Assembly (NCBI GenBank): GCA_021784265.1
Contig: JAJXTA010000002.1
Span: 1-17,790, forward strand
Length of the DNA: 17,790 nt
From: a bacterium
GTDB lineage: Bacteria > Verrucomicrobiota > Verrucomicrobiia > Limisphaerales > J093
Direction: 5' to 3'
Under the pieces are notes generated by a model that did not search any database, was not told the origin of the DNA, and worked only from the letters and a program-made list of their open reading frames with translations. Positions within the stretch are counted from its first letter, which is position 1. Each line of letters begins with the position of its first letter. Of the stretch, positions 814 through 17,790 are shown one piece after another. The position numbers and the translations under genes were made by a program.

Positions 814-850
814 GTCAGGCCGGGCGGACGGTTTTTGGGGCGCGAGCCGG

Positions 851-2167: not shown

Positions 2168-2209
2168 GCCCCATGTCTGGCACTTCGTGTTCGCGCGGTC
2201 AAGTCCGAT

Positions 2210-2234: not shown

Positions 2235-2260
2235 CGCTTCCCGCGGCGCCGCGCACGGAA

Positions 2261-2281
2261 GAGGGCGGTGGGTCCGCCCTC
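2261..2281. repeat. Perfect 8-bp inverted repeat, 5-nt loop
   Basis: GAGGGCGG, spacer TGGGT, CCGCCCTC. It lies 26 bp from the 2210-2234 stem and abuts the next one. There is no T-tract on either side. Confidence 0.55.
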
Positions 2282-2310
2282 CGCGGGTATTTGCGCGGGA
2301 TTGCCCGCGG
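2281..2310. repeat. 7-bp inverted repeat, 16-nt loop
   Basis: CCGCGGG and CCCGCGG separated by 16 nt. The right arm is directly repeated at 2311-2317, so two alternative pairings exist. It shares its first base with the end of the previous stem. Confidence 0.45.
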
Positions 2311-2457
2311 CCCGCGGCCGGCAGGGCGAGCGGTCCTCCGCGCGCCGAGGTCATGGGGCTGGCGGGGTTGGTTGCGGGAGGCGACGGCTCGCACGGGACG
2401 GCCATCCCTATCCACCTGGGTTCGCCGCGAGGCTGTGTCGGGTTCGGGACCACCCGC

Positions 2458-2477
2458 GGGCTCGTGCGCCCGAGCCC
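2458..2477. repeat. Perfect 7-bp inverted repeat, 6-nt loop
   Basis: GGGCTCG, spacer TGCGCC, CGAGCCC. It is positioned about 35 bp downstream of the DUF1080 stop codon on the minus strand, so it could act as a 3'-end stem for the operon, although no U-tract follows. Confidence 0.4.
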
Positions 2478-2511
2478 AAGTCGCTAAGTGCCGCCCCAAA
2501 AACCACCGGGC

Positions 2512-3144: not shown

Positions 3145-3153
3145 GGGGGGCGG

Positions 3154-6100
3154 TCAAGGGTTGCGTTTCACGCGATAGAATTGCCGCGCTTGGTTCGCGG
3201 GGAGGATGGCCGGGCTGGGCGTGGACCCTGGCACGTCGGTCCACGTCTTGAGATCGGGCGAGGCCTGCAAGGTCCCGCCTCCGGTCCAAATCAAGGTGAG
3301 TAGGCCGGCTTTGTCCGCAGTGATGCTGACGAGGAGCGGTGGCTCGATCGGTGTGACCGAGTTTGGCACCAGAATGAACCAATCGAAGTCGCCGCTGCCG
3401 GTGATGAAGCGGAGGGTGACGGGGCCGCCGGGCAGGGTGAAGGTCGTGGGCGGTCCGCTCAGGTTGTTCGTGGCCACCAGGGGCGCCAGGTGGTTGTCAC
3501 CCCAGGCCCCGGAGCCAGGGGCGTCGAAGGCGCCCAGGGCGCGCAGGGTTTGATTCGTGGTGCCCACGCCCGCGGTGACGAGCTCCAGCCGTCCGCGCAG
3601 ACTATGGGCGAGAGTGTCGCCGGAGGAGAGCGCGGCATAAGCTTGGTAGGTGCCGGCGGGGATCGTGCGGGTGTAATCATACCATTCGCCGTCGTCCACC
3701 CAGCCGATCCGGTAATCCACGGCCATGAGCCAACCGCCCCGGTCTAGCCCGTATCGCCCGCCCGCGTTGTCGGTCAGATTCACGCTCTGGCCGCCGACCG
3801 CGAGCCCATTGAGCCGGTCCGAGTTGGTACTGTAATCCCGATAGGCCAGCGACTCGAAGTGGTCATTGTTTTGATAATCGATCCCATACCGCGCCCCCAG
3901 CCCGGCGTAGGCGCCTCCGAAATAGGGCATCTGGCTGGCGGCGGTGAGGGTGTGGTTGGTGCCGTAATCGGAGTCCTCGGCGTCGATAACGAGGCCGGTA
4001 TCGGGCAACTGGTGGCCGGTTTGGAACTCCCATTGGACGGTCTCGGTGTACGGGGTCAGCCCGGCGGGGACCTGGTCGGCGAAGGTCAGGGTTACCGCGA
4101 TGTTGGTGTTGACCGGCAGGGGCGGGGCGAACAGCGCCTGGACGGTGCTCACGCCGTTGGTTTTGCTGATCGTGGGGCTAAGGTTGTGGCCATTGACCAC
4201 GAGCCGCAGCGAAGCCGGGTCCAACGGAGTGTCGCCGTCGGCGATCCGCGCGGTGAGGGGTCCTTGGCCAAAGTCGCCCAACCCCACGCTATTGCGGAGC
4301 GGAGCCACGCGCAGGACGTAGGGCGGCTGGCCGCGTCCCCTCCATTGGTAGGCGCGGAGGGCGGCGGGGTCGGTGGGATCGTTGAGCAAGTGATAGCGGC
4401 CGTCGGCGGTCTGGGTCATCCACTCGAGGCTGGCGAAGCCCTGACCCTGCTCGTAAAGGGTGCGGAAACCGTACAGCCCCGGGTTTAACACCACCAGCGT
4501 GAACGTAGTGTCGGCGGCGGTGCGCCCGCCATCGAATTGGCCCAGTTGATAGAACAGGTCCTTTGGGTTATTGAGCAGGGAGGTCCCGAACCCGTCATCA
4601 CTGTTGACCACCATCGTGTAGGCGCCGGGGGCGGGGAAGGCGATGGCCGTCCAGAGATCGAGGGCGAAGTTCTCGGTGTTGCCCGGCGAGCCCAGGTGGC
4701 CAGGGATGCCAGGGAAGGGAGAGTCGGGATAGCTTGGGGCGTTGAAGTGGCCATCCGTGGCGGTGGGATCGAGGTCGAAGTTGATGACATTGGTCCAGGC
4801 AAACAGCCCGGTGTCGGGGCCGGTGGCAACGGTGTTGCTCAGGTTCGCGGTGTTAGGCCCGAGCTGGCCCCGGAGCATAGCCTCGGCATTGGTGAGACTG
4901 TTGGGCTGGGTGGCGGCCACTTGGTAGGTTTTGATGAGGAACCCCGGGGCGTTGGTGGCCACGGCCCCAGCCGGCAACGCGAGCCCGGCGTCCAGCTTGG
5001 TGAAGGTGGGAACGGTCAGCGTCTGGGTCCAGGAGAAGGAGGTGCCGTTCTGGTCCTTGATGGTTAACCCCACGGGATACGCGCCGCCTGAGGTCAGTGG
5101 TGTGGTGGTGATGAAGGCGATGGTGGTCGTGCCGTTGGTGTCGTGGATGACGCGCGTGGGGCTAACCAGGAACCCCCGGATCGTGAGGGTGATGGTGTTC
5201 GTGTCCGCCACGCTGGCCGGCCCATCCCATAACGTGGCGGTGAAACCGAAGGGCGCGGCCGTGATCCCCTGGAGCAACAGGCTGTTGGTGCGGGCCGGCA
5301 CGAGGGCGAACCAATCGAAATCCCCCGCGTAGGTGGTGTAACGGAGCGTGGTCCGGCCGCCCGGGAGGCGGAAATAGACGGGTTGGCCATTGGTGGTCAT
5401 GGGCAGGAGGGTGTTGCTGCCCCAGCCGCCGGGCCCGGCGGGTCCGAGCAGGGCGCCCAGGGGCTGGACCGTCTGGTTGGTCGTGCCGGCCCCGGCGGTG
5501 ACCAAGCCCAGCCAGCCGCCGATGGTCGTGCCGGCGGTGCCATCGGAGTGGGCGGCGTAAGCGGTGTAAATGCCCGGCGGGATGGTCCGCGTGTAGTCGT
5601 ACCATTCGCCGTTATCCACCCAACCGATGTAGTAATTGAGGCGCATGTCCCACCCGCCGCGGTCCTGCCCGAGGCGCCCGGCGGTGTTGTCGCCAATGCC
5701 GACGCTGGCGGCGCCGGAGAGGTCGGGGGTGGTGTAATCCCGGTACCTGGGCGAGGTGTTGGCGGCGTCGTTATTGAAATAATCGACGAGGTACGTCGCG
5801 CCCAGACCGGCATAGGCGCCTCCATAATATGGCATGACGCTGGCTTGGTCCTGGCTCAGGCCCTGGCTGTCGAAGTCCTCCGCTTCGATGGTGAAGACGT
5901 CCGCGGGCAGCGGCGCCCCCGTCACGAAAGTCCACTGGTTGGACTCGAGGGTGGGGGGAGTGCCGGTGTCGGCGAACACCAGGCGCAGCGTGTTCGTGGC
6001 GTTGGCGGGAATGCTCGGGCCCGGGGCGTAGCTCAGGAGGTTGGTGCCCGGTCCGGGGCTGCTCACGGTCACCGGGACACTCTGGCCATTGACCTCCAGC

Positions 6101-7350
6101 CGCGCCGAGTTGGGATCGAACTGGGTGCGCGGTCCATCCACCACGGTGAAGGAAACCAAGGTGGGCACGCCCACCAGACTCACGTGGCCGGGGCCCGGGT
6201 AGGCGGCCGCCACGTACGGCCCGGTCGGCTGCCAAGCGTAGGTGAGCAGCGCGCCGGGAGCGGTCGGGTCGTTCAGGAGCACGTCCGCGCCCTCATGGAC
6301 GCTCCACCACTCCAGGCTCGCATCGCCCTGGCCTTGCTCATAGACGGTGCGGAACGGATAAAGCCCCGGCTTCGTGACCACGACCACGAACGTGGTGTCC
6401 GCCCAACCCCGGCCCCCCGGGGCGTCGAACTCGCCCACCGTGAACCGCTCGAGCGCGTCCTCGGGATTGAGGCCCGCGCTGGTGCGGAAATCGTCGTCGC
6501 TGTCGATCCCCAGGACGTAAGCCCCGGCCGCGGGGAAGGCGATGGCGGTGAGGAGCTCGCAGGCGAAATTCTCCGTCGGGCTGTTCACCAGCGTTTGGCC
6601 GGGAATGCCCGGAAAGGGGAAGTCCGGATACCCGTTGGCGGCGGTGAAGTGCCCGTGGCCGGACGCGATGTCAAAGTTAATGACGTTGGGCCAGACGAAG
6701 TAGCCGTCCGCGCCCGCAAAGGTAAGGTCGGCCACGTTCGGGCCGTGCTCCCCGGCGAGGAGGGCCTCGGCGTTTGCGATTCCGTTGGGCTGAAGCGCGT
6801 CCACCTGGTAGGTGCGGATGAGGAAACCGGAAATGTTGGTGTTGACGGCGCCGGGTGGCAGGGCCGCGGTTTCTGGCAGCCGGGTGTAGGCCGGCACCAC
6901 CGCGAACGAGAAACTGATGGTGTTGGTATAGGCCGGGGTGCTGGTGTCGCGGAACACCACGGCCACGGTATTGGACGAGCCCGGCGCGAGCAGGCCGTCG
7001 GCGTCGGTGAACGGCGCGCCCGGCTTGAAGCTGATGGTGGTCACGCCGTTGCTGGCTGTCACTGCCGCTCCCACCGGCGTGCCATTGAAGCTCACCCGGA
7101 TCGTGTTGGTCTCGACCCGCGCCACGCCGTCGGCCAACTGGACCTGCACCGTCGCGTCGGGCAGCGCCCCTGTGCCCACCGGGCTGGCGCCGACCCGGTA
7201 CGGGTGGGCCGGGGTGGTGGCGGCCGGGAGCGCCCGCCCGCCCGAATCACCCAGCCCAGTTTGGCCGTAACCGACCCATTCCACCAGGAGCCCGATCACG
7301 AGGATGCGGCCCAGGCCACTCACGTAGGTCCACCAGCGTTTCGCATGCAT
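3154..7350 (-). CDS. Giant secreted two-unit protein: PA14-like, Ig-like and CBM6-like modules
   Basis: Exported protein of 1398 residues from the chosen start, probably carbohydrate binding. The signal peptide is about 1-30 (WWTYVSGLGRILVIGLLVEW, then GYGQ). Unit 1 has an Ig-like strand region (70-150), a PA14-like domain (156-360), an Ig-like domain (385-479) and a CBM6-like beta-sandwich (481-687). Unit 2 repeats the order at 691-782, 784-990, 1010-1112 and 1115-1331. A short tail domain at 1337-1395, with LQASPDLKTWTDVPG, is typical of verrucomicrobial exported proteins. Matching landmarks include YEQGQGDASLEW (337) and YEQGQGFASLEW (966), GWVDNGEWYDYTRTIP (576) and GWVDDGEWYDYTRTIP (1216), and GDFDWF in both CBM-like domains. 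No glycosidase or peptidase catalytic motif was seen, so binding or adhesion is the safer reading. The frame opens at 7395, but ATG at 7350 directly precedes the signal peptide. It is the first gene of an operon with the DUF1080 gene. Confidence 0.88.
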   Translation of the reverse strand: MHAKRWWTYVSGLGRILVIGLLVEWVGYGQTGLGDSGGRALPAATTPAHPYRVGASPVGTGALPDATVQVQLADGVARVETNTIRVSFNGTPVGAAVTASNGVTTISFKPGAPFTDADGLLAPGSSNTVAVVFRDTSTPAYTNTISFSFAVVPAYTRLPETAALPPGAVNTNISGFLIRTYQVDALQPNGIANAEALLAGEHGPNVADLTFAGADGYFVWPNVINFDIASGHGHFTAANGYPDFPFPGIPGQTLVNSPTENFACELLTAIAFPAAGAYVLGIDSDDDFRTSAGLNPEDALERFTVGEFDAPGGRGWADTTFVVVVTKPGLYPFRTVYEQGQGDASLEWWSVHEGADVLLNDPTAPGALLTYAWQPTGPYVAAAYPGPGHVSLVGVPTLVSFTVVDGPRTQFDPNSARLEVNGQSVPVTVSSPGPGTNLLSYAPGPSIPANATNTLRLVFADTGTPPTLESNQWTFVTGAPLPADVFTIEAEDFDSQGLSQDQASVMPYYGGAYAGLGATYLVDYFNNDAANTSPRYRDYTTPDLSGAASVGIGDNTAGRLGQDRGGWDMRLNYYIGWVDNGEWYDYTRTIPPGIYTAYAAHSDGTAGTTIGGWLGLVTAGAGTTNQTVQPLGALLGPAGPGGWGSNTLLPMTTNGQPVYFRLPGGRTTLRYTTYAGDFDWFALVPARTNSLLLQGITAAPFGFTATLWDGPASVADTNTITLTIRGFLVSPTRVIHDTNGTTTIAFITTTPLTSGGAYPVGLTIKDQNGTSFSWTQTLTVPTFTKLDAGLALPAGAVATNAPGFLIKTYQVAATQPNSLTNAEAMLRGQLGPNTANLSNTVATGPDTGLFAWTNVINFDLDPTATDGHFNAPSYPDSPFPGIPGHLGSPGNTENFALDLWTAIAFPAPGAYTMVVNSDDGFGTSLLNNPKDLFYQLGQFDGGRTAADTTFTLVVLNPGLYGFRTLYEQGQGFASLEWMTQTADGRYHLLNDPTDPAALRAYQWRGRGQPPYVLRVAPLRNSVGLGDFGQGPLTARIADGDTPLDPASLRLVVNGHNLSPTISKTNGVSTVQALFAPPLPVNTNIAVTLTFADQVPAGLTPYTETVQWEFQTGHQLPDTGLVIDAEDSDYGTNHTLTAASQMPYFGGAYAGLGARYGIDYQNNDHFESLAYRDYSTNSDRLNGLAVGGQSVNLTDNAGGRYGLDRGGWLMAVDYRIGWVDDGEWYDYTRTIPAGTYQAYAALSSGDTLAHSLRGRLELVTAGVGTTNQTLRALGAFDAPGSGAWGDNHLAPLVATNNLSGPPTTFTLPGGPVTLRFITGSGDFDWFILVPNSVTPIEPPLLVSITADKAGLLTLIWTGGGTLQASPDLKTWTDVPGSTPSPAILPANQARQFYRVKRNP
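3358..5001 (-). repeat. Internal coding repeat, unit 2 (PA14-like, Ig-like, CBM6-like)
   Basis: Codes for residues 784-1331 of the same protein and is the second copy of the three-module unit. The offset from unit 1 grows from about 628 to 640 residues through small insertions, mostly in the CBM-like part. Confidence 0.75.
5293..6885 (-). repeat. Internal coding repeat, unit 1 (PA14-like, Ig-like, CBM6-like)
   Basis: Codes for residues 156-686 of the giant exported protein. The order of domains and many motifs match unit 2 at 3358-5001, about 630-640 residues further along. The DNA has diverged strongly outside the best conserved motifs, so this is an old duplication. Confidence 0.75.
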
Positions 7351-7588
7351 ACCCAAGAACTTTGGCCAGCCCGACTCCGCGGTGGCGGGCGGCACCGAGC
7401 CGCGTCATCCCGTGGAGGGGGGCGCCAACCGGCTGAGCAAGGCCTGTCATCCATACCATCACTTAGAACCCCGGGCTCTCAAGTCCGCTTTTTCGCCGAG
7501 CCGTTAGGGCGCGTCACTCCGTGCGCGCCGTCGCGGCCAACCCGTGGACGCGGATCGTCTTCTGGCGGCGGGTAGAACGAGCGTCCGC

Positions 7589-7603
7589 GTGAGCCTGGCT
7601 CAC
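7589..7603. promoter_or_regulatory. Perfect palindrome GTGAGCC-T-GGCTCAC (operator-like)
   Basis: Seven perfect pairs around one central base. A one-base centre cannot form a good RNA loop, so a dimeric DNA-binding protein site is the more natural reading. It lies about 240 bp upstream of the giant exported protein start. No regulator gene is present in the window. Confidence 0.3.
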
Positions 7604-7675
7604 AGAATGGTCCCGGACGCGGCGGCATGGAGCGATAGCGGCGGGATGGGCAGGAGGAACAGGATTGGGCGGCGA

Positions 7676-7695
7676 CACCGGGCGGCGACCCGGTG
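7676..7695. repeat. Perfect 7-bp inverted repeat, 6-nt loop
   Basis: CACCGGG, spacer CGGCGA, CCCGGTG, within the gene-free region. There is no T-tract on either side and no function is assignable. Confidence 0.4.
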
Positions 7696-7996
7696 CCTCC
7701 GGTGAATCCCGCGATCCGGCCGTAGAAGGGGGGTGCGTTCAAGGGTGGCGGGTGCCGCAGGCCGAGGCGGGCCCCGAGGGACCGGAGACCCGGGGTGGGC
7801 CGTGGCCCGCGACGGGAACCCGGGCATCAGCGCCGCGAGAATCCGTTTGCCTGAGGCTTGGGCACGGCGTATCCATAACCCCATGAGTTGGGAACGACTC
7901 CTTCGTCCGTGGTCCGTTGCCTTGCGCCGACGAGTGCCGTCCAGGTGGCAGCCAGCGTGCGGCCAAGAGGGCGGTACAGATGCCGCCCGCCCGTCC

Positions 7997-8026
7997 GGCT
8001 CGGGTCAGTGGCCCCGTCCCCGAGCC
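7997..8026. repeat. Perfect 8-bp inverted repeat, 14-nt loop
   Basis: GGCTCGGG and CCCGAGCC separated by 14 nt, about 150 bp upstream of the small exported protein gene. It may be a leader stem if transcription starts upstream of it. Confidence 0.35.
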
Positions 8027-8144
8027 TCGACGCCGCCGCACTGTAGAACCCAAGCCGCCCTTGCTGGCGCTAGCCGTCGCCGGCCTGGCCAGCAACCGGG
8101 GAGTGCGGCCCCGCGACCAGCGCCCCATCGAGCGGTTGGGGTTC

Positions 8145-8160
8145 GAACCTCAGCAGGTTC
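8145..8160 (+). promoter_or_regulatory. Hairpin GAACCT-CAGC-AGGTTC abutting a ribosome binding site
   Basis: A perfect 6-bp stem with a tetraloop ends one base before the purine-rich ribosome binding site of the 8176 gene. The left arm is also part of the palindrome GGTTCGAACC (8140-8149), giving a possible alternative pairing. A role in controlling translation is possible but unproven. Confidence 0.35.
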
Positions 8161-8169
8161 AGGGAAAGG
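8161..8169 (+). promoter_or_regulatory. Ribosome binding site AGGGAAAGG
   Basis: A purine-rich site six bases before ATG 8176. It decides the start against the in-frame ATG at 8194. It is one of the few strong sites in this window, where most genes have weak ones. Confidence 0.7.
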
Positions 8170-8175
8170 CATTCA

Positions 8176-8778
8176 ATGAGTACCATAACTGATATGCGCG
8201 CATGTCTCCTCATCTTCGGCCTGGCATGGCTGGCGGCCGCTAGTGTCGTCACCGCGCAAACACCCAGCCCTCTGGCCCAGGCGCCGGGGGTCGGCATCCG
8301 TTTCACCGGTTTCACCAACACCGGCCCGGCAAGCGTAGCCACCGTCATGGGGATGCCCAGCACGAATAGAACCATCTTTGGCCAGCGGGTGACTCCCGGC
8401 TCCGGTCCGCTGAGCGTGACGATTCCCCGAGGGCCTGCCGCGGTCTTTGCCTATACCAATTCGTCCTCGTTGCCAACGGTCTGCACCGTGCAGACAATCG
8501 AGTACCAGACCACCGCTGGCTGGGCCGCGGTCCGGCTGACCTCCCCGCCGGGCAGCCTGCTCGTGCCCCCACACGGTACGGCGACGCAGGCGCTGCCGGT
8601 GTCTGACACCAGTGTTGCCTGGCGGATCAAGGTCTTCTGTGTCGAGCAGGCTACGGGAGTGCGGCGGGCGGTCGAGCGCACGGAGGGATACGTCAACGAA
8701 TTGGCCACCGGCCAGAAGACCGAGCGCTTCAGCGGGCGCAAGTACCTCACGACCAGCGCCCAGCCGGTGAAGCAATGA
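8176..8778 (+). CDS. Small exported protein of unknown function
   Basis: I do not recognise the family. The protein has 200 residues. A short N-terminal stretch (MSTITDMRAC) leads into a hydrophobic segment at about 10-25 and a signal-peptidase-type site after VTAQ (25-28), so it is probably exported to the periplasm. The mature part is rich in Thr, Ser, Val and Pro and looks beta-rich; it has two cysteines (C103, C155) that could pair as a disulfide. The C-terminus is more charged (about 155-190). There is no lipobox, catalytic motif or repeat. The start is supported by a strong ribosome binding site. It is followed on the same strand, 142 bp on, by another small membrane or exported protein; co-transcription is possible but not shown. 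Confidence 0.72.
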   Translation: MSTITDMRACLLIFGLAWLAAASVVTAQTPSPLAQAPGVGIRFTGFTNTGPASVATVMGMPSTNRTIFGQRVTPGSGPLSVTIPRGPAAVFAYTNSSSLPTVCTVQTIEYQTTAGWAAVRLTSPPGSLLVPPHGTATQALPVSDTSVAWRIKVFCVEQATGVRRAVERTEGYVNELATGQKTERFSGRKYLTTSAQPVKQ

Positions 8779-8920
8779 GCAGCAGGACCGTTCCCGGCGG
8801 CAGGCGTGGTCACTTCCCTCCTGGTGGCGCGGGAGAAACTCGCCGCCCTCCGCGGGCATCGGCCCCGGGACTTCCCCTCGGTTGCGGTTGAGCGAGGCTG
8901 TCACTCCACGCGCCTCGGCC

Positions 8921-9313
8921 ATGCGAAAGCGGACGCTGTTGATTCTGGGACTCGCCGCGGCGCTCGGCCTCGCGGGGGCGGTCGGCTGGCCGTTCTTCGG
9001 CTACCGAATTCACGAGCGCTGGCGCCGTCGCGGGTTCGACGCGGCTGCGTGGAAGGATGTCGAGACTCTGACGAACGACGCGCGCCTCCGGAGGGTGGAC
9101 GACCTCTTGCGCCGCTACAACTTTCGCGGTATGGCGCGCGCGCGGGTTACGGCCCTGCTCGGAGAGCCACGGCCGACCGGGTATTTCAAAGGGTGGGACC
9201 TGGTGTATTGGCTTGGACCCGAACGGGGTTGGATCAGCATCGACTCGGAATGGTTGGTATTCCGGCTCGACGCCGACAAGAAAGTCAGCGATTACAAGAT
9301 CGTGCGAGATTGA
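8921..9313 (+). CDS. Small membrane-anchored protein with a BamE-like domain
   Basis: The protein has 130 residues. A hydrophobic N-terminal segment (4-22) after MRKR acts as an uncleaved anchor or signal peptide; there is no lipobox cysteine. The soluble part holds a segment about 70-130 with MARARVTALLGEP (71-83), YWLGP (96-100), WISIDSEWLVFRLD (104-117) and KVSDYKIVRD (121-130). The pattern of a helix ending in 'LLGxP' followed by paired strands resembles the small BamE/SmpA-like fold; this is a pattern judgement, and a direct role in outer-membrane assembly is not implied. A longer frame begins with TTG at 8882, but ATG 8921 places the positive residues directly before the hydrophobic segment. 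There is no good ribosome binding site. It converges on the large ATPase gene with 187 bp between them. Confidence 0.72.
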   Translation: MRKRTLLILGLAAALGLAGAVGWPFFGYRIHERWRRRGFDAAAWKDVETLTNDARLRRVDDLLRRYNFRGMARARVTALLGEPRPTGYFKGWDLVYWLGPERGWISIDSEWLVFRLDADKKVSDYKIVRD

Positions 9314-9438
9314 AGCTGCAAGCCGACCGGTCGCTGGAGCGATTGCCGTGGAGCTGACTGCCGGTGTCGGGCCTCGGGGCGGTGGGTTTCGATTCGCCCG
9401 GTGACAGTTGGTTTTCACTGCCGGAGTGCCGCCCTCTT

Positions 9439-9453
9439 GGTGGCCGAGCCACC
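9439..9453. terminator. Short hairpin between convergent genes
   Basis: GGTGGC, loop CGA, GCCACC, a perfect 6-bp stem. It lies 48 bp beyond the stop of the minus-strand ATPase gene and 125 bp beyond the plus-strand gene. Neither strand has a T-tract after it, so this is only a possible transcript end. Confidence 0.25.
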
Positions 9454-9500
9454 GGGAGACGGTCAGAGTACCCACACTCGATTCGATGCCGCTGGCGGGT

Positions 9501-12500
9501 TCACCTGTAAATCTCTTCGAGCCGATGGGTGAGTTGCCGGGCTTCGGCCCAGCCGACCTCGACGAACAGGTCGAGGACCTCCAAGAGTGCGCTCAGGCAC
9601 TCGGATTCTTGACCATCGTAGCTCTCGAAGAGGTCACGGTGATCGGCCAGGGCTCGCTGGATCAGCCGGACAACGTCACCGACGGCCAGCGATTCGTACT
9701 GTAACCCCGCCGCCGCGCTAATGCGAATGGATTTGGCTGCCAGCAGGAAGATTTCGCGAGGCGCACAGGGGAACAGGTAGTTCAGGGTTTCAACCAGTTG
9801 GTGAGCCGTATGCGGATGCGGCTCCGTCGCAAGGCTGTCGAGCAGAGGCTGGCTGTCGCTCCAAAACTGGCGCCGCTGTGCGGGGTTCAACGCCTGTCGG
9901 TCTTTGAGGTTCGGCCTCTCATCGAGTGCGCCGCTGGCGAAGTAAAGCTGTGCGCCGATGTCATCGACTAGCCGCGCCAGCCGGTCGAGCCTCGCCTGGA
10001 CAGGATTGATGGTGTCCGCAGGCGGCGGATTAGCAGCATGGAGCCGGCGCGATTCCTCGCGGCACTGTTGGAGCTTGATTTGGGCGGCCGCCAATACTTG
10101 GGAGAAGAACCTCCAGGTCCGGGTTCGAGCCTTATCCGCGTAGGCAGCCGGTGTCTCGCCGCCTTCCGCCGTCAGCCAGCCGCCATTGCGGCATGAGTGC
10201 AGCAGGGCTTTGAGTGCGACAGATGCTCGCTGACTGTCGCATTCTTGGATGAGGCCCGTGATAAACGACTCGCAGTCCGGGTCGCCCGTTCGCAGGAAGT
10301 AGAAGAGGTTGACCTGGGCGAGTGTCGTGTGGATGTGATGCTCGGTGGGAGCGATCTTCCGGGCCCGGTCCGCGATCTGGTTCACTCGAGGCTTCACCTG
10401 GTTTGGCGCCTTCGCCCAGAGACAATCCAGCGACGACAGCACGGCATCGAGTACAAACGGCCTTTCCTCGTCCGCGATGAACGTGTCCACCAATTCCCAC
10501 ATTAGGTCGGACGAGGATTGGTCCAGGACGGCTAGCCTCCCTGCCAGGTTGAATCGCAGTGCATAAGACGGGTCGTGACAGAGTCGGCGCAGCGCCGCGG
10601 CAATCGCATCGTCGGCCTGTCCCAAACGGCAGGCAAGGAACGGCAATCCGCAGGCCGCGTCGATTCGGGGAGAAGGCCAGCCCCAACCTGGTGGCTCGTC
10701 CTCTCCTCCTCCCCAGTCCTCGCTCGGCGTCGGCACCGGATCGGTCGAGGCCTTGAGCAGCACCTTCCGCACCGTCGGCCAGCGTTCGTCTGTCTTCGGC
10801 CAGGGCGCTCGTTGGGCGATGGTCGCGCACGCGCCAACAAGGTGGCCCCACAGGTCTTCGGTCATTTGCCTTTGAGCCTGGCCGGGTTGTTCCAGGACTC
10901 GGTCGCATTCCAATATCAGTGGCCAATGCTCGTCGATCGCGCAGGCACTGCTCGCCTGCCCTCCGCCAGCGAGAAAGGGTTTAAGGGATTCGCGTAACTC
11001 GAAGAGTTTCTTGTTCCTAGGTTCGCTGAGATCGACACCCCTGCGCTCGACCCGCTCTTCCGCCGTAAAAGTGCGCGAGATCACCTGGGGTCGCTCGGGC
11101 GGTCGATTCGCCGGCAGTCTTGTGGCTGCCCCGCGGGCGCGTCGCAGGTCTCGAACGGTGCCAAGGACGATATTCCGCTCTTCAAGCACGCCGAGCAGCC
11201 GGTTTTGAGCGTGCTCGACCCAGGGCGGCGCAGGCTCACGGGGTTCCCCCTCGGGCAGTCGCGCGGTCAGCGGCAAGTCAAGGATGAGCCGCTCCAGACG
11301 CTCCCGTCGGGTCGGAGAGTCGAGCTTGTGGAGCGCTTCGAGCAAAAGGACGCTGGCGTACGCATAGTCGGGGTGGGTGAGAAACAGCGACTCGCTCAAA
11401 ACGCCCTCCAGGAGGACGCCCAGGGTCGAGGGATGTTGGGCTCCGGCAACCATGAAAATGGTCCACATCATCGAGGTTCGATTCCGGGCCGCGAACCGGT
11501 CCAGTGCCTGGTTCACGCTGGCCGGATCACCCTCGGCGGCCCAGCCGCGCAAAAGGGCCTCGAAATGAGATAAAATGCGATTCTCGTCATAGTCAAAGCC
11601 GCGTCCCCAGATGTGACCGTAGTCCTCGACCAGGTCGCACCGCGCCCCTCGAAACTGGATGGTGGCCAAGATGCGCTCTTCACGGTTGGGACCGTCCAAA
11701 CGCCGCCGCATGACCGCGTTCCAAGCGATGCATGCTGCTTCGGTCATGAGCGCCGGGTTGTCGCCGCCGCGGGATTCGTAGTAATCAGCCAGGAGATGAT
11801 GCACCGTATTCCAGCGGTCGCTGCTTTGAAAGCGCAGTCGCAGACTCGGGCTCCCGCGCTCTTCCCATTGACCTGGCTCGGGCTCGTCGGAGAATGCCGC
11901 CTCGAACAGGCGGACGATGACCCTGTCGCCCTTGGCGCCAAGGTGCTTGAGGTGTTGAGCCAACGCGCTAAGGTCATCGTGCGGAAACTGCACAAGCCGC
12001 TCTGGCGCGAGAAGACTTAGGAGGGCGTGCTCGCTTTCCGGGGGCGCAACGTGGAACGTCCGGTAAAGCAGCTCGATGGCGACGAGGGCTGCGTAGGGCC
12101 GACCCTTCCCGACCCCCTTGCTGACGTGATGAGCCGTTAGGTCCCGCGCGGCAGCGTTCACAGCACGGCATGGAGACGCGTCGTTCACGCCTCCGACGGC
12201 GTTCAGTCGCGCGAGGATGTGGACTAACGGCGCTTCTGTGAGGAAGTCGCTTGGAAGGCACTTCGCCAATTCCCGCGCAAACGCGCCCCAGGCGCCGGCT
12301 CCAGTCCGGATAATCTCCGGCTCGACATCCTGCAGGCCGGAGGCGAGGTGACGGAGTGCGCGGTGGGCGGGATCGTCTATGCCGGTGGCCGAACCAAGCG
12401 CCGTTAGCAGTGGGCGAAGGTCGGCGAGAGCCTCGACGCGCCGAGCGGCAAGAAGTGGTGCGAGAATGCGGGTCATGCTGCGCAACTGGGGTGCGCCTTC

Positions 12501-14825
12501 CAGTCGCAGAGCTACCTGCCAGAATCCACTCCGCTCGTCCGGCGCATCCCAGATCTGCTCCAAGGCAAACAGGAAACTCTGTCGATAGAAGGTGGGCAAA
12601 AGGTGGTCTTGAAGCACGAAATCATAAAAAGGGTCTGGCGTCTCCGGTATGAGGCAGCGGGCAATTGCATAATCGTGCAAGAGGTGATGGGTGAACCGTA
12701 TTTCATCGCCGCCGACCTGGGTCTGCCGCCGCAGTCCCGGCGAGTTCAGAATGCCGCGGCTGCGCAACTCGTCAACGGAAGCGCGCTCAGAGGCAGACAG
12801 CGAGAGTTGCTTGCGGGACACCGCCAGCCGGCGGCTGCGGACGAGCGCCTGGCAGATGGCTTTGAGCGCGTTCTCCCGGTCGCCGGCTCCTGCGCCTCCG
12901 CTCACGCGTGTTTCCCAGAATGTCCGGAGCAAGAGCGCGGGGCTCTGCCAGTCGGCCAAGTGGGCGGGAGGCACGCCCGCCCGCAGGAGGTCTGCGGCCA
13001 GTCGCAGGTGAAACGGCGAGCGATGAACGCCGCCGGAGTTTGGGTTGGTTCGGGCGCCCTCGATAAATGAGCGGATTTCCGGTCGCGCTGAAACGAGTTC
13101 GTCCACTTGCCGCTCCGCTAACCGAGGCAGGTGGAAATGAGCGACGGCAGGAAAGTCACTCGAAGAAAAGCCGGCGACCCCAGCGCCAGGGAAAGTATCG
13201 CGCAACTCGCGGCTGTATTTGAGGTCGAACTCCCGTACGCTGGCGATTACCTTCCAACTAGCTTGCCCTTCGCGCACATCGCGCAAAAGGCGGCGTAGCC
13301 GCTTTTGCCGATCGGCGTCGCGCAGCGCATCCAGCGCGTCAGTGATGAGGAAGCCGCCCGCGCCGTCGGGCCAGTTGGCCAGGATTTGGTCGAGCCGATG
13401 CGTGAGGTTTGGCGGGTCCTCGTCGGCCAAGAGTAGCACGACGGGGACCCCTTCATTACGCAGGGCCTCGGCAAGCGCATGGATCATGCCGCTCTTCCCG
13501 CAGCCGGGCTCTCCCGTGAGGAGAAGATGGCCGAGCTTCGCCGCCGTGATGAGAGCCGAGAATTCCTGCTGGCGGTCGATATGCACAAGATCGCCTGGAT
13601 CATCGCCAAACGCGAGGGTCGTGTGATCCTTCAGCCCCAACAAGTTCCGCTCGGTTAGCTCGTCGAGCGCGGCGAGGTCGCCGGAGTAGTCCGTTGGCCG
13701 GCGCAATGGGATACCAGCGTCGGTCAGCGCCCGGCGCAGCGACGCCCGGTCGGCTGAAGTGCCTTGGCAGTCCATCTGGAGGAAGTGATGTTCCAGCTTC
13801 TCCCAGGCGCGCGGCGCGAATTTGGAGTCCGCGACGATGTGAGAACCGATGTCGCCTTGAATGTGAGGCGGAAGCCGCTGGCCAGGCCCGAAATCGAGAA
13901 CCTCCACAAACACCGCACCGAGAAACTGACGAAGCTCACCATCGGACGGATCACGTCCTGCTCGTTCTCTCCAGGCCTGGGTGGTCACGTCGAGCAGTCC
14001 TTGCACGGCTTTCTTAGCCTCTTTCCGCCGGGACCCCAAGAAAGCGTCGAGGGGGCCGCCAGCAGCGTCTCGATGCTCTTTGAGGACGCGCGCCAGATGC
14101 TGCGTCCCGGCGGGGCCGACGCTGTTCGGAACCGCCCAGACGAACCGGCTCTTAGCACGCGCGGAACTGGAGAGCTTTAGGAACTGACCCACAAACGCAC
14201 CCACCGTCTCCACGAACGCTGGATCCCGGCGCGTGAGCGCGACGGACCCACTCCGTTCCTTCGCCGAGATAAAGACCCGTGCTTCAGGGTCGTCACGGAG
14301 CGTGACGACGATGTCATCCACCGGCTCCGCCACTTGCATGGCGATGCCTGACAGGTCCCCCCCCGTGATGTTCTCCCACACCGCAGTTTGGCTGCCGGCG
14401 AGCATTTTTACGGCCAGGAACGCGGCAACCCGAGCTTCATAATTCACCCCGCTCGCTGTCGCCCTGCCGCCAAAACGAACCGAGGGGACCGCGGGAACGC
14501 GTGGCGGGCCCTGCGGCGTTGCGCCGGCGGTGGAGGCGGCTCCAGCTTCGTGGTCGTCCCTGAGTGTGGGTGCCGGCTCTATCCGAGGCGTTACGCGCAA
14601 GCCGCGTTGGATTTGAGCGCGCATCCTAAGTTCTTCCAGCATACGAAGCTTCTCCTCCGGCGAGAGACCTGCGGGTGCGCGACGGAAACGGCGCTTATTC
14701 TGAAGTTGCCGGTTAAGATCGAAATCCTCACCAAGCAACTTTAGCCTTTGGTCCGGGGGAAGCTCGGCGAGCATGCGCCGGTACTCCGGGTCGCTCTCGA
14801 GCATGTGCAGCGCGTCCAAGTTCAT
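9501..14825 (-). CDS. Avs-like STAND ATPase with N-terminal PD-(D/E)XK-like nuclease
   Basis: Predicted cytoplasmic defence ATPase, 1774 residues. Residues 1-75 are charged helices with two related segments (PPDQRLKLL, SPEEKLRML), then a Pro/Ala linker to about 115. Residues 120-240 look like a PD-(D/E)XK nuclease: SGVNYEARVAAFLA (E130), EPVDDIVV (D170/D171) and VFISAKERSGS (K189); Ser187 sits where Glu or Gln is usual. It most resembles DUF4297/Cap4-like effectors. The NACHT/STAND ATPase has Walker A GEPGCGKS (438-445), Walker B GFLITDALDA (491-500), sensor-like WKVIASVREFD (524-534) and FTHHLLHDYAIARCL (711-725), the usual end of the winged-helix part. Residues 730-1774 are helical, repeat-like and without catalytic motifs, as in sensor regions of Avs proteins. 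The order effector, switch, sensor suggests nuclease activation on recognition of a phage product; this is inference. The frame is intact. It is the second gene of an operon, 9 bp after the nucleotidyltransferase gene. Confidence 0.85.
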   Translation of the reverse strand: MNLDALHMLESDPEYRRMLAELPPDQRLKLLGEDFDLNRQLQNKRRFRRAPAGLSPEEKLRMLEELRMRAQIQRGLRVTPRIEPAPTLRDDHEAGAASTAGATPQGPPRVPAVPSVRFGGRATASGVNYEARVAAFLAVKMLAGSQTAVWENITGGDLSGIAMQVAEPVDDIVVTLRDDPEARVFISAKERSGSVALTRRDPAFVETVGAFVGQFLKLSSSARAKSRFVWAVPNSVGPAGTQHLARVLKEHRDAAGGPLDAFLGSRRKEAKKAVQGLLDVTTQAWRERAGRDPSDGELRQFLGAVFVEVLDFGPGQRLPPHIQGDIGSHIVADSKFAPRAWEKLEHHFLQMDCQGTSADRASLRRALTDAGIPLRRPTDYSGDLAALDELTERNLLGLKDHTTLAFGDDPGDLVHIDRQQEFSALITAAKLGHLLLTGEPGCGKSGMIHALAEALRNEGVPVVLLLADEDPPNLTHRLDQILANWPDGAGGFLITDALDALRDADRQKRLRRLLRDVREGQASWKVIASVREFDLKYSRELRDTFPGAGVAGFSSSDFPAVAHFHLPRLAERQVDELVSARPEIRSFIEGARTNPNSGGVHRSPFHLRLAADLLRAGVPPAHLADWQSPALLLRTFWETRVSGGAGAGDRENALKAICQALVRSRRLAVSRKQLSLSASERASVDELRSRGILNSPGLRRQTQVGGDEIRFTHHLLHDYAIARCLIPETPDPFYDFVLQDHLLPTFYRQSFLFALEQIWDAPDERSGFWQVALRLEGAPQLRSMTRILAPLLAARRVEALADLRPLLTALGSATGIDDPAHRALRHLASGLQDVEPEIIRTGAGAWGAFARELAKCLPSDFLTEAPLVHILARLNAVGGVNDASPCRAVNAAARDLTAHHVSKGVGKGRPYAALVAIELLYRTFHVAPPESEHALLSLLAPERLVQFPHDDLSALAQHLKHLGAKGDRVIVRLFEAAFSDEPEPGQWEERGSPSLRLRFQSSDRWNTVHHLLADYYESRGGDNPALMTEAACIAWNAVMRRRLDGPNREERILATIQFRGARCDLVEDYGHIWGRGFDYDENRILSHFEALLRGWAAEGDPASVNQALDRFAARNRTSMMWTIFMVAGAQHPSTLGVLLEGVLSESLFLTHPDYAYASVLLLEALHKLDSPTRRERLERLILDLPLTARLPEGEPREPAPPWVEHAQNRLLGVLEERNIVLGTVRDLRRARGAATRLPANRPPERPQVISRTFTAEERVERRGVDLSEPRNKKLFELRESLKPFLAGGGQASSACAIDEHWPLILECDRVLEQPGQAQRQMTEDLWGHLVGACATIAQRAPWPKTDERWPTVRKVLLKASTDPVPTPSEDWGGGEDEPPGWGWPSPRIDAACGLPFLACRLGQADDAIAAALRRLCHDPSYALRFNLAGRLAVLDQSSSDLMWELVDTFIADEERPFVLDAVLSSLDCLWAKAPNQVKPRVNQIADRARKIAPTEHHIHTTLAQVNLFYFLRTGDPDCESFITGLIQECDSQRASVALKALLHSCRNGGWLTAEGGETPAAYADKARTRTWRFFSQVLAAAQIKLQQCREESRRLHAANPPPADTINPVQARLDRLARLVDDIGAQLYFASGALDERPNLKDRQALNPAQRRQFWSDSQPLLDSLATEPHPHTAHQLVETLNYLFPCAPREIFLLAAKSIRISAAAGLQYESLAVGDVVRLIQRALADHRDLFESYDGQESECLSALLEVLDLFVEVGWAEARQLTHRLEEIYR

Positions 14826-14831
14826 GGCAAG

Positions 14832-14836
14832 CCCTC
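14832..14836 (-). promoter_or_regulatory. Ribosome binding site GAGGG of the ATPase gene
   Basis: GAGGG ends six bases before ATG 14825 and overlaps the TGA stop of the nucleotidyltransferase gene. It fixes the start of the ATPase and suggests translational coupling between the two genes. Confidence 0.65.
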
Positions 14837-15350
14837 AATGACCTTCAGAGGCGAGCCAGCGATCGTAGAGGCGATGGCGTTGAAGGATTTGGCTAAACCG
14901 GGATTCATCAAGCGCCTTTTCCTCGCGAAACTGGTCTAGGCGGCGCTTGTCTTTTGGACGGCCCACAGCGAAAGCGATCGCCGCGAGGTGCTCGGCGGTG
15001 AACACGCGTATTGGCACGCCGCCGACGTTGTGCTCCACGCTCTGCTCGAGAGCCTCCTTGGTGAGCGGGTTGGCGTCCGCAGGCAGTAACTGGACCGGCC
15101 AGCCGGCGATGACAGGGAGGCCCTCACGGTTAAGTGGAAACCCGCGCTGCTCCAGGTAGTTGTGAACCAAGCTCAAGGAGGCCAACAACTGGCCCGGTGC
15201 CGGGGTCAAAACCACAAAAATGTCCACGTCCTGCGTATCGACGGGCTCGAGGTAGAAATTCGCGGCGACGGCACCGCCGAGCGCAAACCGGCTAATAATC
15301 CCGTCCGCCTGCATCTTGTTGATGACCGCGAAGGTTTCTTTTATGTTCAT
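14835..15350 (-). CDS. Solitary nucleotidyltransferase-fold protein
   Basis: The protein has 171 residues with a nucleotidyltransferase (pol-beta-like) core. FALGGAVAANFY holds G25 and G26, and QDVDIFV holds D41 and D43: the GG...DxD pattern that binds nucleotide and metal. The next core strand, GWPVQLLPA (83-91), has Gln87 where a third acidic ligand is often found, so catalysis is uncertain. I recall this VQxLP form from a group of small NTase-like proteins that continue with GVPIRVFTAEHLAAIAFAVGRPKDKRR (111-137) and end in a helical ILQRH...DRW segment, as here. AbiEii/MNT toxins are more distant relatives. No AbiEi or HEPN partner is adjacent; the neighbour is the STAND ATPase 9 bp downstream, so the two were probably made together. 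Possible jobs are modifying RNA or protein, or regulating the ATPase. The start gives a full-length fold; only GGGG lies close before it. Confidence 0.82.
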   Translation of the reverse strand: MNIKETFAVINKMQADGIISRFALGGAVAANFYLEPVDTQDVDIFVVLTPAPGQLLASLSLVHNYLEQRGFPLNREGLPVIAGWPVQLLPADANPLTKEALEQSVEHNVGGVPIRVFTAEHLAAIAFAVGRPKDKRRLDQFREEKALDESRFSQILQRHRLYDRWLASEGH

Positions 15351-15356
15351 GCCCCG

Positions 15357-15386
15357 ATTACATCACGCCCTCGTAACTTAACTCAA
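15357..15386 (-). promoter_or_regulatory. Candidate sigma-70 promoter of the NTase-ATPase operon
   Basis: On the minus strand, -35 TTGAGT (15381-15386) and -10 TGTAAT (15357-15362) are separated by 18 bp. They match consensus at 4/6 and 5/6 positions. Transcription would start almost at ATG 15350, implying a leaderless or nearly leaderless transcript, which fits the lack of a normal ribosome binding site. Confidence 0.4.
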
Positions 15387-15391
15387 CCTGT

Positions 15392-15407
15392 CGGCTCGCG
15401 CGAGCCG
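15392..15407. promoter_or_regulatory. Perfect 16-bp palindrome CGGCTCGCGCGAGCCG
   Basis: All eight pairs match. It lies five bases upstream of the candidate -35 box of the NTase-ATPase operon and 18 bases downstream of the stop of the broken PIN gene. It could be an operator for the operon, or, read as RNA, a 6-bp GC-rich stem with a GCGC loop ending the PIN transcript; no T-tract follows. Confidence 0.45.
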
Positions 15408-15425
15408 TTCAAATCCCCGCAGGTG

Positions 15426-15569
15426 TCACCCCTCCGGCCTCAACAGCGGCCTGACCTTGTTGCCGTGCCGGCGATAGATCCTGAAATGCGCGTCCAAGGT
15501 AAACACCGTGCCACCGGGATGCATCTTGGCCAGCAGCCGATCCGGCAGTCTGAGCGGAATCGTGCTCAT
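15426..15569 (-). pseudogene. C-terminal remnant of a PIN-domain (VapC-like) toxin
   Basis: Only the last 47 residues remain from ATG 15569. PLRLPDRLLAKM matches position by position the PIN-family helix usually written PMSLADACLVRM, including its conserved Asp, and is followed, after loss of about three residues, by HPGGTVFTLDAHFRIYRRHG, the hallmark end of VapC-like ribonucleases with their late Asp in TLDxxF. A complete PIN toxin is about 130-140 residues and needs N-terminal acidic residues that are absent here. The frame continues upstream of the ATG to 15719, but that part shows no PIN motifs and looks non-coding. No antitoxin gene is present. A remnant of a type II toxin-antitoxin locus is the best reading; a functional short protein is unlikely. 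Confidence 0.7.
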
Positions 15570-15717
15570 GGCCTTGATGGTAATACGGGCCGAGTGTGTG
15601 TGCAATGCCGGGCTAGCCCGTGATCTGCCGCTGGCGACGGGCCGAGGCACGCGGGCCCGCCTGCCTGCGGTTTCTCCCTTGTAGGGCGCGGTGGTTTTGT
15701 TTCCAATCACCGGCGGC

Positions 15718-16866
15718 ATGGAACCCGCCCGATCAGGCCGCCGGCGTCACTGGTGGTGGTGCCTTTTGCTGGGGTTGGCCGGCTGCGCGCCGGGGTCGCA
15801 CCGGTTCTACCCCTTGGGCATTTACAGCGTGCCCAACACCAACGACCTCGCCCTGGTGCGCGCGGCTGGTTTCAACCTGGTCACCGGTCCCACCAGCAAG
15901 GCTTATTTCGATGCGGCGCAAGCGGCGGGATTGCGCGTGCTGGCGGCCCCAGGCACCGCCGCCGGTCCCCACTTCGACGCCGCCCGCGCCCGCCAGAGTG
16001 TGGCGGCGCTGGACCGGCATCCGGCCTGTTGGGCCTGGTACCTCTGCGACGAGCCGGACTTCAACCATGTCCCACCCGCGCAGGTGCGCCAAGCGGGACG
16101 TTTTCTCAAGTCCCTGGACGCCCGCCGGCCCACGGCCCTGACGCTCTTCCAGGGTTACGACGCCCTGGATTACGGCGGGCTTGCCGACTTGGTGCTGGTG
16201 GACCGTTATCCGATCCCCTGGTTGCCCCTGGCCAACGTCGGTCAACATCTCCGGCAAGCCCGCCTGGCCCTGGGGCCGCATCAGCCGCTGATCGCGGTCA
16301 TCCAGGCCTTCGATTGGCGCTACGACGCGCGCCTTTTGCCGGGAGAAAGCCGGTTCCGCGCCCCGACGCTCGCGGAGCTGCGGTGCATGACCTACTGCGC
16401 CTTGGCCGAGCGGGCTAACGGGCTGTTTTATTACGCCTACGATGCCGGCGGCTGGCGAATGAGCGAGCACCGGACCACCTGGGAGGCCCTCTGCCAGGTC
16501 GTGCGCGAGGTCCAGGCCCGGCGCCCACTCTTTGAGGCCGAGCACCGCTGGTGGGCCCGCGACTACGCGTTCCCCGAACGCGCCCAGGCCTTTAACGCCG
16601 CCTTGGAGAGCAGCGTTACCACCGCCTGGCTGCGGGTGCGCCGCGGCAACACGGAGGTCCCGGCCGGCCATTACCTCCTGGCGGTCAACAACACCGACCA
16701 GCCGCGGACCTTCCGCTTTCGCCTGCCCGCCGCGCCCGCGAGGGACGGGGCCGCCCTGCCGGTGTTGGGCGAGGCGCGGGCCCTGGAGGGCGGCAAAGGC
16801 TGGGTGCAGGACCAGTTTGCCCCGTACGCGGTCCACGTGTACGGACCGCGGGCGGCGGCCGATTGA
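15718..16866 (+). CDS. Lipoprotein with TIM-barrel glycoside-hydrolase-like domain
   Basis: The protein has 382 residues. Residues 7-23 form a lipoprotein signal: basic RSGRRRH, hydrophobic WWWCLLLGL, then the lipobox LAGC with C23 as the lipidated cysteine. The mature part starts like a beta/alpha barrel: YPLGIYSVPN (31-40), LALVRAAGFNLVTGPT (44-59) and LRVLAAPGT (72-80). CWAWYLCDEPD (104-114) follows, where E112 is the natural candidate for a catalytic acid. LVLVDRYPIPW (158-168), IAVIQAFDWRYD (192-203) and GLFYYAYDAGGW (235-246) fit later strands. A C-terminal beta-sandwich (about 300-378), with WLRVRRG and FAPYAVHVYG, is common in glycoside hydrolases. I cannot name the GH family or substrate. 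A longer frame starts with GTG 15691, but ATG 15718 puts the lipobox in the normal place. No strong ribosome binding site is visible. Confidence 0.75.
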   Translation: MEPARSGRRRHWWWCLLLGLAGCAPGSHRFYPLGIYSVPNTNDLALVRAAGFNLVTGPTSKAYFDAAQAAGLRVLAAPGTAAGPHFDAARARQSVAALDRHPACWAWYLCDEPDFNHVPPAQVRQAGRFLKSLDARRPTALTLFQGYDALDYGGLADLVLVDRYPIPWLPLANVGQHLRQARLALGPHQPLIAVIQAFDWRYDARLLPGESRFRAPTLAELRCMTYCALAERANGLFYYAYDAGGWRMSEHRTTWEALCQVVREVQARRPLFEAEHRWWARDYAFPERAQAFNAALESSVTTAWLRVRRGNTEVPAGHYLLAVNNTDQPRTFRFRLPAAPARDGAALPVLGEARALEGGKGWVQDQFAPYAVHVYGPRAAAD

Positions 16867-16892
16867 CAAATCGGTGGTGTACGAACACCCTC

Positions 16893-16925
16893 TCCCGCGG
16901 TGATCGTGGGCGCCGCTCCGCGGGA
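16893..16925 (+). terminator. GC-rich stem after the lipoprotein gene
   Basis: TCCCGCGG and CCGCGGGA, an 8-bp perfect stem with a 17-nt loop, 26 bp after the stop codon. A smaller stem GGTGT-ACGA-ACACC (16876-16889) precedes it. There is no T-tract, so it is at best a weak or factor-dependent transcript end; it lies just upstream of the next promoter. Confidence 0.35.
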
Positions 16926-16935
16926 CGATTCCTCA

Positions 16936-16965
16936 TTGACACCGGAGGCCGGGCCATCATATAAA
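16936..16965 (+). promoter_or_regulatory. Near-consensus sigma-70 promoter for the CoA-transferase gene
   Basis: TTGACA (16936-16941), 18-bp spacer, TATAAA (16960-16965). It matches consensus at 6/6 and 5/6 positions. The predicted transcript start near 16972 leaves a leader of about 44 nt before ATG 17016. It is the best promoter in the window. Confidence 0.7.
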
Positions 16966-17015
16966 GTGATGCAACATGCGGTTGTTGAATGCGATAATCT
17001 AATAGGTCAAAGGAC

Positions 17016-17790
17016 ATGAAAGTTGTTTCGGCGGAAGAAGCGGTACGGGTCGTCAAGTCCGGAGACCGCCTCCATCTCCACAGCGTGGCGTGCGCCCCGC
17101 AGAAGTTGATCCAGGCCCTCTGCGCCCGCGGGCGCGCCGGGGAATTGACGAACGTGACGATCCAACACTTGCACACCGAAGGCCCGGCCCCCTACACCCG
17201 GCCGGAGTTCGAGGGGGTGTTCCAGTTGGAGTCCTTTTTCGTGGGGCACAATGTCCGGCGGGCCACCCAGGAGGGCTATGCCGATTACATCCCGGTCTTT
17301 CTCAACGACACCCAGCGGCTGATCCGGGAGGAATACCTGCACGTGAACGTGGCGATGGTGCAGGTCTCCCCTCCGGACAAGCACGGTTACGTCTCGTTGG
17401 GCACGTCGGTGGACGCGAGTCTGGCGGCGGTCGAATGCGCCGACACGGTGATCGGGGTGATCAACCCGCGGGTGCCGCGGGCCTTCGGCGACGCCATGAT
17501 CCCCCTGAGCCTGATCGACCTTCGGTGCGAAGACGACGCCCCCTTGTTGGAGGCGGCCCCAGCCGCCCCCAACGAGGTCGAGACGCAGATCGGGCGAAAC
17601 GTGGCGGCGTTGATCGAGGATGGCGCGACCTTGCAGATGGGCATCGGGGCCATTCCCAATGCCGTGCTGGCGCAGTTGGGCAACCACAAAAACCTCGGCA
17701 TCCACACCGAGATGTTCTCCGACGGGCTGCTGCCGTTGGTCGAGCGCGGGGTGGTGAACGGGGCGGAGAAATGCGCCGACCGCGGGCGCA
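17016..17790 (+). CDS. Acetyl-CoA hydrolase / 4-hydroxybutyrate CoA-transferase family protein (partial)
   Basis: The 5' part of a family I CoA-transferase gene, 258 residues before the window ends; a complete member has about 430. These cytoplasmic enzymes move CoA between acyl groups (for example acetyl-CoA and 4-hydroxybutyrate or other short acids) through a glutamyl-CoA thioester. Visible landmarks are LESFFVGHNVR (71-81), VSPPDKHGYVSLGTS (117-131), the CoA-site loop LQMGIGAIPNAV (206-217) and GIHTEMFSDG (228-237), whose Glu232 is the expected catalytic nucleophile. The acyl substrate cannot be decided from this half. ATG 17016 is chosen because the family N-terminus (KVVSAEEAVRVVKSGDRL) starts here; AAAGGA lies only one base upstream, closer than usual. 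It has its own strong promoter and so is likely independent of the preceding lipoprotein gene. Confidence 0.92.
   Translation, partial: MKVVSAEEAVRVVKSGDRLHLHSVACAPQKLIQALCARGRAGELTNVTIQHLHTEGPAPYTRPEFEGVFQLESFFVGHNVRRATQEGYADYIPVFLNDTQRLIREEYLHVNVAMVQVSPPDKHGYVSLGTSVDASLAAVECADTVIGVINPRVPRAFGDAMIPLSLIDLRCEDDAPLLEAAPAAPNEVETQIGRNVAALIEDGATLQMGIGAIPNAVLAQLGNHKNLGIHTEMFSDGLLPLVERGVVNGAEKCADRGR

Follow-up and report, generated by a model that had tools for sequence, protein, structure and literature searches.

A nucleotidyltransferase operon in which the enzyme's usual small partner appears fused to a nuclease-STAND ATPase: a candidate two-effector defence system

When the gene of a small nucleotidyltransferase (NTase) lies directly ahead of that of a large nuclease-STAND ATPase, do the two belong together, and what could join them? 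The question is raised by a stretch of 17,790 nucleotides from a verrucomicrobial bacterium (GenBank assembly GCA_021784265.1, contig JAJXTA010000002.1, positions 1 to 17,790; hereafter the window), which forms contig C383 in a draft genome of 4.33 Mb (G000, 75.6% complete) holding a single match for each of the two proteins. An earlier reading of the DNA letters, here called the original prediction, had proposed the pair as an uncharacterised anti-phage operon or else as chance neighbours. Both open reading frames (ORFs) were found where it had placed them (Table 1), as were the 9-bp intergenic gap and the ribosome-binding site over the NTase stop codon: the junction reads CAT TGA GGGCTTGCC ATG, and GAGG overlaps the TGA. 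Two things had been overlooked, namely the N-terminal ~75 residues of the ATPase and its membership of the PADLOC candidate family PDC-M54A.

The predicted model of this N-terminal extension shows short helices (residues 3–11, 13–21 and 24–30) ahead of a helical hairpin, then a linker and then the nuclease domain. Among 126 ATPase homologues (120 database rows, the window's own included, and six loci from genome contigs), 53 carry the extension and 43 start directly with the nuclease; the other 30, whose N-terminus was missing or of another kind, were left unassigned. A search with residues 1–90 as query was uninformative, returning among 78 candidates no long protein with the extension except the window's own. 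A hidden Markov model (HMM) built from the extension recognised, in addition, short ORFs directly downstream of NTase genes that have no recognised ATPase of this family beside them, and most NTases of the family are followed by a gene of 47–116 aa that starts within about 45 bases of the NTase stop codon. A second HMM was trained solely on 21 free-standing small proteins located behind NTases. The extension HMM had picked out the first of these and the rest were chosen for their position and by eye, so the set is only partly independent of the extension. This small-protein HMM matched 51 of 120 ATPases, every one labelled as extension-bearing, and detected the hairpin, free or fused, behind 52/55 NTases (31/34 without the 21 training loci; no match at L021, L023 and L024), with no matches among 704 control frames. 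Partial NTases (L038, L039) and duplicate loci (L066, L067, L075) were left out of this set, and 20 stretches were taken from further NTase places. In 49 further loci outside the training, from which NTase frames above E 1e-10 were left out, the hairpin was found behind 40 of 50 NTase frames and not behind the other ten, and the controls (647 frames) gave matches in two loci.

The matches of the small-protein HMM to ATPase N-termini show that the gene that usually accompanies the NTase has become the N-terminal part of the ATPase. This partner is a helical hairpin according to the predicted model and the HMM, and not a winged helix like the AbiEi antitoxin, which sets the window system apart from AbiE; six free-standing partners showed no significant Pfam family. 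The NTase, which had been described as solitary, is not so in kind, as it belongs to a widespread module of NTase plus small hairpin protein. A divergent NTase clade (loci L025–L028, L030 and L034–L036) has a small partner that looks different (QxxWQ...W.EK.R) and is possibly a sister module.

Linkage of the two genes was estimated with an identical size of the longest contig as a stand-in for adjacency. At least 13 of 116 NTase rows have a longest contig exactly as long as that of one of 119 ATPase rows, where 0.33 would be expected by jittering; the counts are lower bounds from the best 120 of 1284 NTases, three of which had no longest-contig figure. Twelve of the 13 linked ATPases bear the extension and the remaining one (P0041) lacks its N-terminus; excluding the window row, 12/51 rows with the extension are linked versus 0/39 without it (p = 9e-4). 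A complete second pair, consisting of an NTase and an extended ATPase separated by 2 bp, was found in a metagenome-assembled genome (MAG) of Acidobacteria (L003). Five loci without an extension match (L004–L008) contain no NTase; four of these genomes have no NTase match, and the fifth (G647) has an NTase with a free-standing hairpin on another contig, plus a weak match. The predicted coupling thus holds beyond chance for the extension-bearing ATPases, by linkage, second locus and fusion, but adjacency does not extend to the family as a whole, given its 43 extension-less members and these five loci. For the extension-bearing class, neither rarity of adjacency nor lack of a nuclease fold was found, and the claim survived.

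In a FastTree covering the Walker A motif to the C-terminus of 113 ATPases (13 of the 126, short or with no Walker A match, were left out), the distribution of the extension requires eight changes, five of them forced by well-supported branches, and NTase-linked ATPases are spread over several clades; P0036 and P0045 carry both extension and NTase, yet fall within a mostly extension-less clade. In the NTase tree, all 15 linked NTases fall in one clade of 74 rows (support 88), with all 55 unlinked locus rows (one duplicate and three fusion loci among these) outside it, a pattern partly built in because linkage is visible only among the NTases nearest to the window's; outside the clade, 0/47 database NTase rows are linked. 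Over 13 pairs, NTase distances correlated with those of the extension (rho 0.35; 21/3000 permutations), compared with 0.16 for the nuclease and 0.17 for the STAND part, and 0.67 between nuclease and STAND part; the NTase–extension value is one of six comparisons in a small sample. Applied to whole proteins, the mirror-tree comparison of 14 pairs did not reach significance.

The NTase has a predicted MenT-type fold with DxD and, two residues ahead, a serine or threonine, and MenT1 has T39, D41 and D43 (PMC11375011, available excerpts). In a 60-row alignment, T39 and D41 are invariant (60/60), followed by D43 (59/60), K133 (59) and G25 (58/60), so the GG and DxD motifs originally pointed out are present and conserved. 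Pfam, taken up to E 1, gave DUF2204 alone (E 0.0028), and the DUF1814/AbiEii models did not match, nor did any NCBIfam or PADLOC model; Pfam at E 0.1 showed no AbiEii-type family in 28 NTase relatives, and no AbiE model was among the PADLOC matches of the NTase, these relatives and the ATPase. The likeness to MenAT1 comprises the predicted fold and the T/DxD motif. A short partner, predicted to have two helices, is present in the window system, where it is unlike MenA1 in sequence and fused to a sensor, with the gene order reversed. Sequence homology between hairpin and MenA1 was sought and not found, and the partner had no sequence match in the Protein Data Bank (PDB).

The ATPase follows the Avs-like order that had been predicted: nuclease, STAND-type ATPase and long C-terminal part. 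Its nuclease domain is predicted to fold like those of Hachiman, Avs3, Lamassu and Cap4 in a first comparison and like Avs3, a HerA-DUF assembly, Cap4 and LmuA in a second alignment, with D170 and D171 conserved in 58/58 rows, K189 in 57 and E130 in 56; the PD-(D/E)XK-like domain first seen thus stands, but extends over residues 115–370 rather than 115–250. The checked positions of the Walker A motif GEPGCGKS and of the LITDALDA box do not vary in 22/22 rows, Pfam nSTAND3 stayed under its cut-off (E 1.6e-4; 21.9 versus 27.2 bits), and the profile of the ATPase alignment (A1) matched PDB 9n00, an 'AAA family ATPase', at 4e-7. In the C-terminal stretch, of which about 1000 residues had originally been predicted to be helical and repeat-like, Pfam at E 0.01 found nothing (residues 776–1774). 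Full-length matches to named Avs models did not rise above cut-off (NCBIfam Avs4, 12.6 of 1500 bits; Avs2, 10.5 of 1000), and PADLOC Avs2 gave E 0.003 over 43 residues only. With Avs3/AVAST the protein shares an N-terminal effector nuclease of predicted Cap4/DUF4297 fold on a STAND-type ATPase; the window system differs in its additional hairpin and NTase gene. The ATPase is already catalogued as candidate PDC-M54A; the M54A models start behind the extension, and the NTase fits no PADLOC model. The ~500-aa M54B was considered as a missing partner and rejected, the window's incomplete genome giving 0 matches with PDLC04703, one of four M54B models; M54B was found in 2/7 ATPase-bearing genomes.

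We give a rough probability of 45% to the operon being a two-effector, Avs-like defence system in which the small restraining partner of a MenT-like toxin is fused to a phage sensor. Its ancestral unit would be an NTase gene directly followed by the gene of a small two-helix protein, a pair comparable to MenT1 and its antitoxin MenA1 (68 aa), and in the window lineage the small protein would have become, via a flexible linker, the N-terminus of the ATPase. In the resting state the hairpin would bind the NTase and keep it inactive, possibly as in MenAT1, for which active-site blocking or T39 phosphorylation is described (PMC10435456, PMC11375011, available excerpts). The C-terminal part would sense a phage protein and trigger an ATP-driven assembly, in which the nuclease domains meet and the contact between hairpin and NTase is altered or lost. 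The nuclease would then cut DNA, while the NTase, freed or clustered and acting as a toxin, would nucleotidylate RNA, most likely tRNA 3' ends, and stop translation. The least certain steps are the substrate and the sign of the interaction, that is, whether the NTase is restrained or restrains.

The latter is the core of the main alternative, which we regard as unlikely although a serious contender: the NTase, docked on the hairpin, would nucleotidylate the ATPase or its nuclease in the manner of MNT on HEPN and hold the system off until infection. NTase antitoxins do exist, as in MNT-HEPN (PDB 7ae9 was matched at E 0.17), the operon opens with the NTase gene, a position often taken by antitoxin genes, and docking and co-variation of NTase and extension fit equally well. 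Unlike MNT-HEPN, the window system has no HEPN partner: Pfam recognised no HEPN family in five proteins of the window, the NTase and the ATPase among them.

The hairpin was also found on proteins unrelated to the ATPase. In G259:C37 (L013 / L083:3316-4134) the NTase is followed by a hairpin fused to an HsdS-like specificity domain (PF01420, E 9.9e-28), with HsdM and HsdR not recognised by eye in 14 kb; in G397:C3 (L082:8166-9545) the hairpin is fused to a 459-aa TPR-like protein beside the NTase. In G507:C20 (L081:7378-11321) the NTase lies directly upstream of a 704-aa OloA-like protein (PADLOC E 1.9e-30) with an N-terminal hairpin, and OloB (E 2.2e-25) follows downstream, OloA and OloB being what we take to be the Olokun defence system; what is common with the window is the NTase-hairpin module only, as OloA and M54A are separate PADLOC families. 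Such fusions are rare, numbering these three plus L003 in the 55-NTase set, and no hairpin fusion above 140 aa was seen in the 49 further loci. Near the HsdS-like fusion, an RtcR-like regulator, a Fic protein and a second NTase-like ORF were noted.

Tentatively, the module may be portable: the antitoxin of a MenT-like, tRNA-modifying toxin would have been fused more than once to unrelated defence proteins (STAND nuclease, OloA, HsdS), so that a sensor doubling as antitoxin would release the toxin on infection and add a translation-stopping effector to a DNA-targeting one. It is improbable, in our view, that NTase and hairpin are instead a self-sufficient addiction module whose fusion secures retention of the locus and has no role in sensing. 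The pair is mostly free-standing, the NTase occurs on a viral contig and a plasmid, and fusions to OloA, HsdS and TPR proteins could be opportunistic; however, three of the four kinds of fusion partner match PADLOC defence or candidate models, which is more selective than random, few as four kinds are, and the linked NTases fall in one clade, in part through the sampling. More improbable still is that the NTase acts upstream, as sensor or amplifier, and switches on the nuclease-STAND protein through a nucleotide signal or a modification. Signal-gated Cap4 does have a nuclease of this fold, but CD-NTase folds rank low in comparisons of the NTase (CdnC, E 0.086), neither SAVED nor CARF was detected in the ATPase by Pfam, and the nuclease is joined to a STAND-type ATPase, which is the arrangement of Avs3. 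Chance adjacency, suggested by the occurrence of each protein without the other, was rejected as highly improbable in view of the linkage excess, the second complete pair, the extension-limited pairing and the fusion of the module's second gene to the ATPase.

PDC-M54A, Avs-like sensors and MenT-like NTases are known kinds. The small effector-associated domains (EADs) are non-catalytic, link effectors with conflict proteins, STAND-type ones among them, and are described as pairing homotypically (PMC7159879, PMC8195603, available excerpts); going by these descriptions, the hairpin would likewise be a small non-catalytic coupling domain, but its partner is an NTase. The NTase-hairpin-sensor arrangement is not described in the available excerpts of these two papers and of PMC12839542. 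Open-licence PubMed Central, preprints excluded, yielded no paper on 'PDC-M54', on PDB 9N00/9N01 or on a combination of AbiEii, NACHT and antitoxin, and its available texts none on a small NTase partner fused to a sensor and reused on other defence proteins.

Avs-type sensors fire a built-in effector and toxin-antitoxin systems stop infection, but how a toxin is coupled to a specific sensor is, to our knowledge, mostly unclear. In this operon such a coupling is legible in the genes themselves, the small partner of a toxin-like enzyme forming part of the sensor. If the two-effector reading is true, it would provide a direct route from phage recognition to toxin release, account for a second effector on one sensor, which may control two weapons, define a plug-in module common to different defence systems and give a role to a large uncharacterised family of NTases with small proteins.

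Table 1. Features of the NTase-ATPase operon, in window positions.
Feature	Position	Strand	Basis
MenT1-like NTase, 171 aa	14835..15350	-	
NTase T39-x-D41-x-D43 motif: metal site and position of MenT1 phosphoacceptor	15222..15236	-	Alignment; MenT1 residues in available excerpts of PMC11375011
GAGG, ribosome-binding-like, overlapping NTase stop codon	14833..14836	-	Direct reading of sequence
Nuclease-STAND ATPase, 1774 aa, PDC-M54A family	9501..14825	-	PADLOC PDLC04700, E 1.6e-231, residues 119-1774
Possible first, imperfect copy of hairpin motif, residues 1-31	14733..14825	-	Small-protein HMM weak at residues 7-31 (independent E 0.18); alignment
Adaptor/antitoxin-like helical hairpin, residues 37-73 (helices 37-53, 56-73)	14607..14717	-	Small-protein HMM, independent E 7.4e-8 (residues 34-71); predicted model
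Linker, residues 76-117, low predicted confidence	14475..14600	-	10-residue means of model confidence (pLDDT) 46-67 over residues 81-130
Predicted Cap4/DUF4297-type PD-(D/E)XK nuclease domain, residues 118-370; E130, D170/D171, K189	13716..14474	-	
STAND-type ATPase region, ~residues 418-760, with LITDALDA and HHLLHD boxes	12546..13574	-	nSTAND3 below cut-off; 9n00; invariant residues
Walker A GEPGCGKSG, residues 438-446	13488..13514	-	G438, G443, K444, S445 in 22/22 rows
C-terminal ~1010 residues, presumed sensor	9504..12545	-	A1 conservation up to last residue; within PDC-M54A model

NTase matches occur in 39/387 genomes of the window's phylum, 73/384 of its class and 65/347 of the phylum of the Acidobacteria MAG, counts that take in weak matches up to E 0.001 and possibly other NTases. 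Phage records contained no NTase. On the one viral contig bearing it (IMGVR_UViG_3300028909_000096; L009:5995-6869), NTase and free-standing hairpin protein lie amid genes that look phage-structural by eye. The ATPase was found in the window's own genome alone among the 387 of the phylum, nine further matches (E 7e-5 to 8e-4) having been dropped as short and mostly at the P-loop. Scanning genome contigs with the single ATPase gave no match, and with alignment A1 six loci (L003–L008); viral contigs yielded none, and a phage-borne ATPase was rejected. Distant PDC-M54A relatives were noted on 13 plasmids, from Rhizobium, Agrobacterium and Streptomyces among other genera, at 24.7–28.9% identity among the ten matches listed (H2–H11), and H5 overlaps a feature annotated as Shedu immune nuclease family protein. 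In a Geobacteraceae MAG, a PDC-M54A relative (L004:8203-13209) has a phosphorylase-superfamily domain in place of the nuclease and sits behind an HNH gene and, by eye, toxin-antitoxin-like genes.

Around the operon, only short ORFs on the opposite strand lie 3' of the ATPase gene, and a defence-island setting was rejected, no defence family being recognised among the scanned window neighbours. Flanking genes with a Pfam match appear metabolic or secreted (metallo-beta-lactamase fold, FG-GAP repeats, 3-keto-disaccharide hydrolase, weak PA14, acetyl-CoA hydrolase). Unrelated to the NTase-ATPase finding, window positions 3154-7395 encode a 1413-aa protein whose PA14 match stayed under the cut-off and whose two halves look similar by eye.
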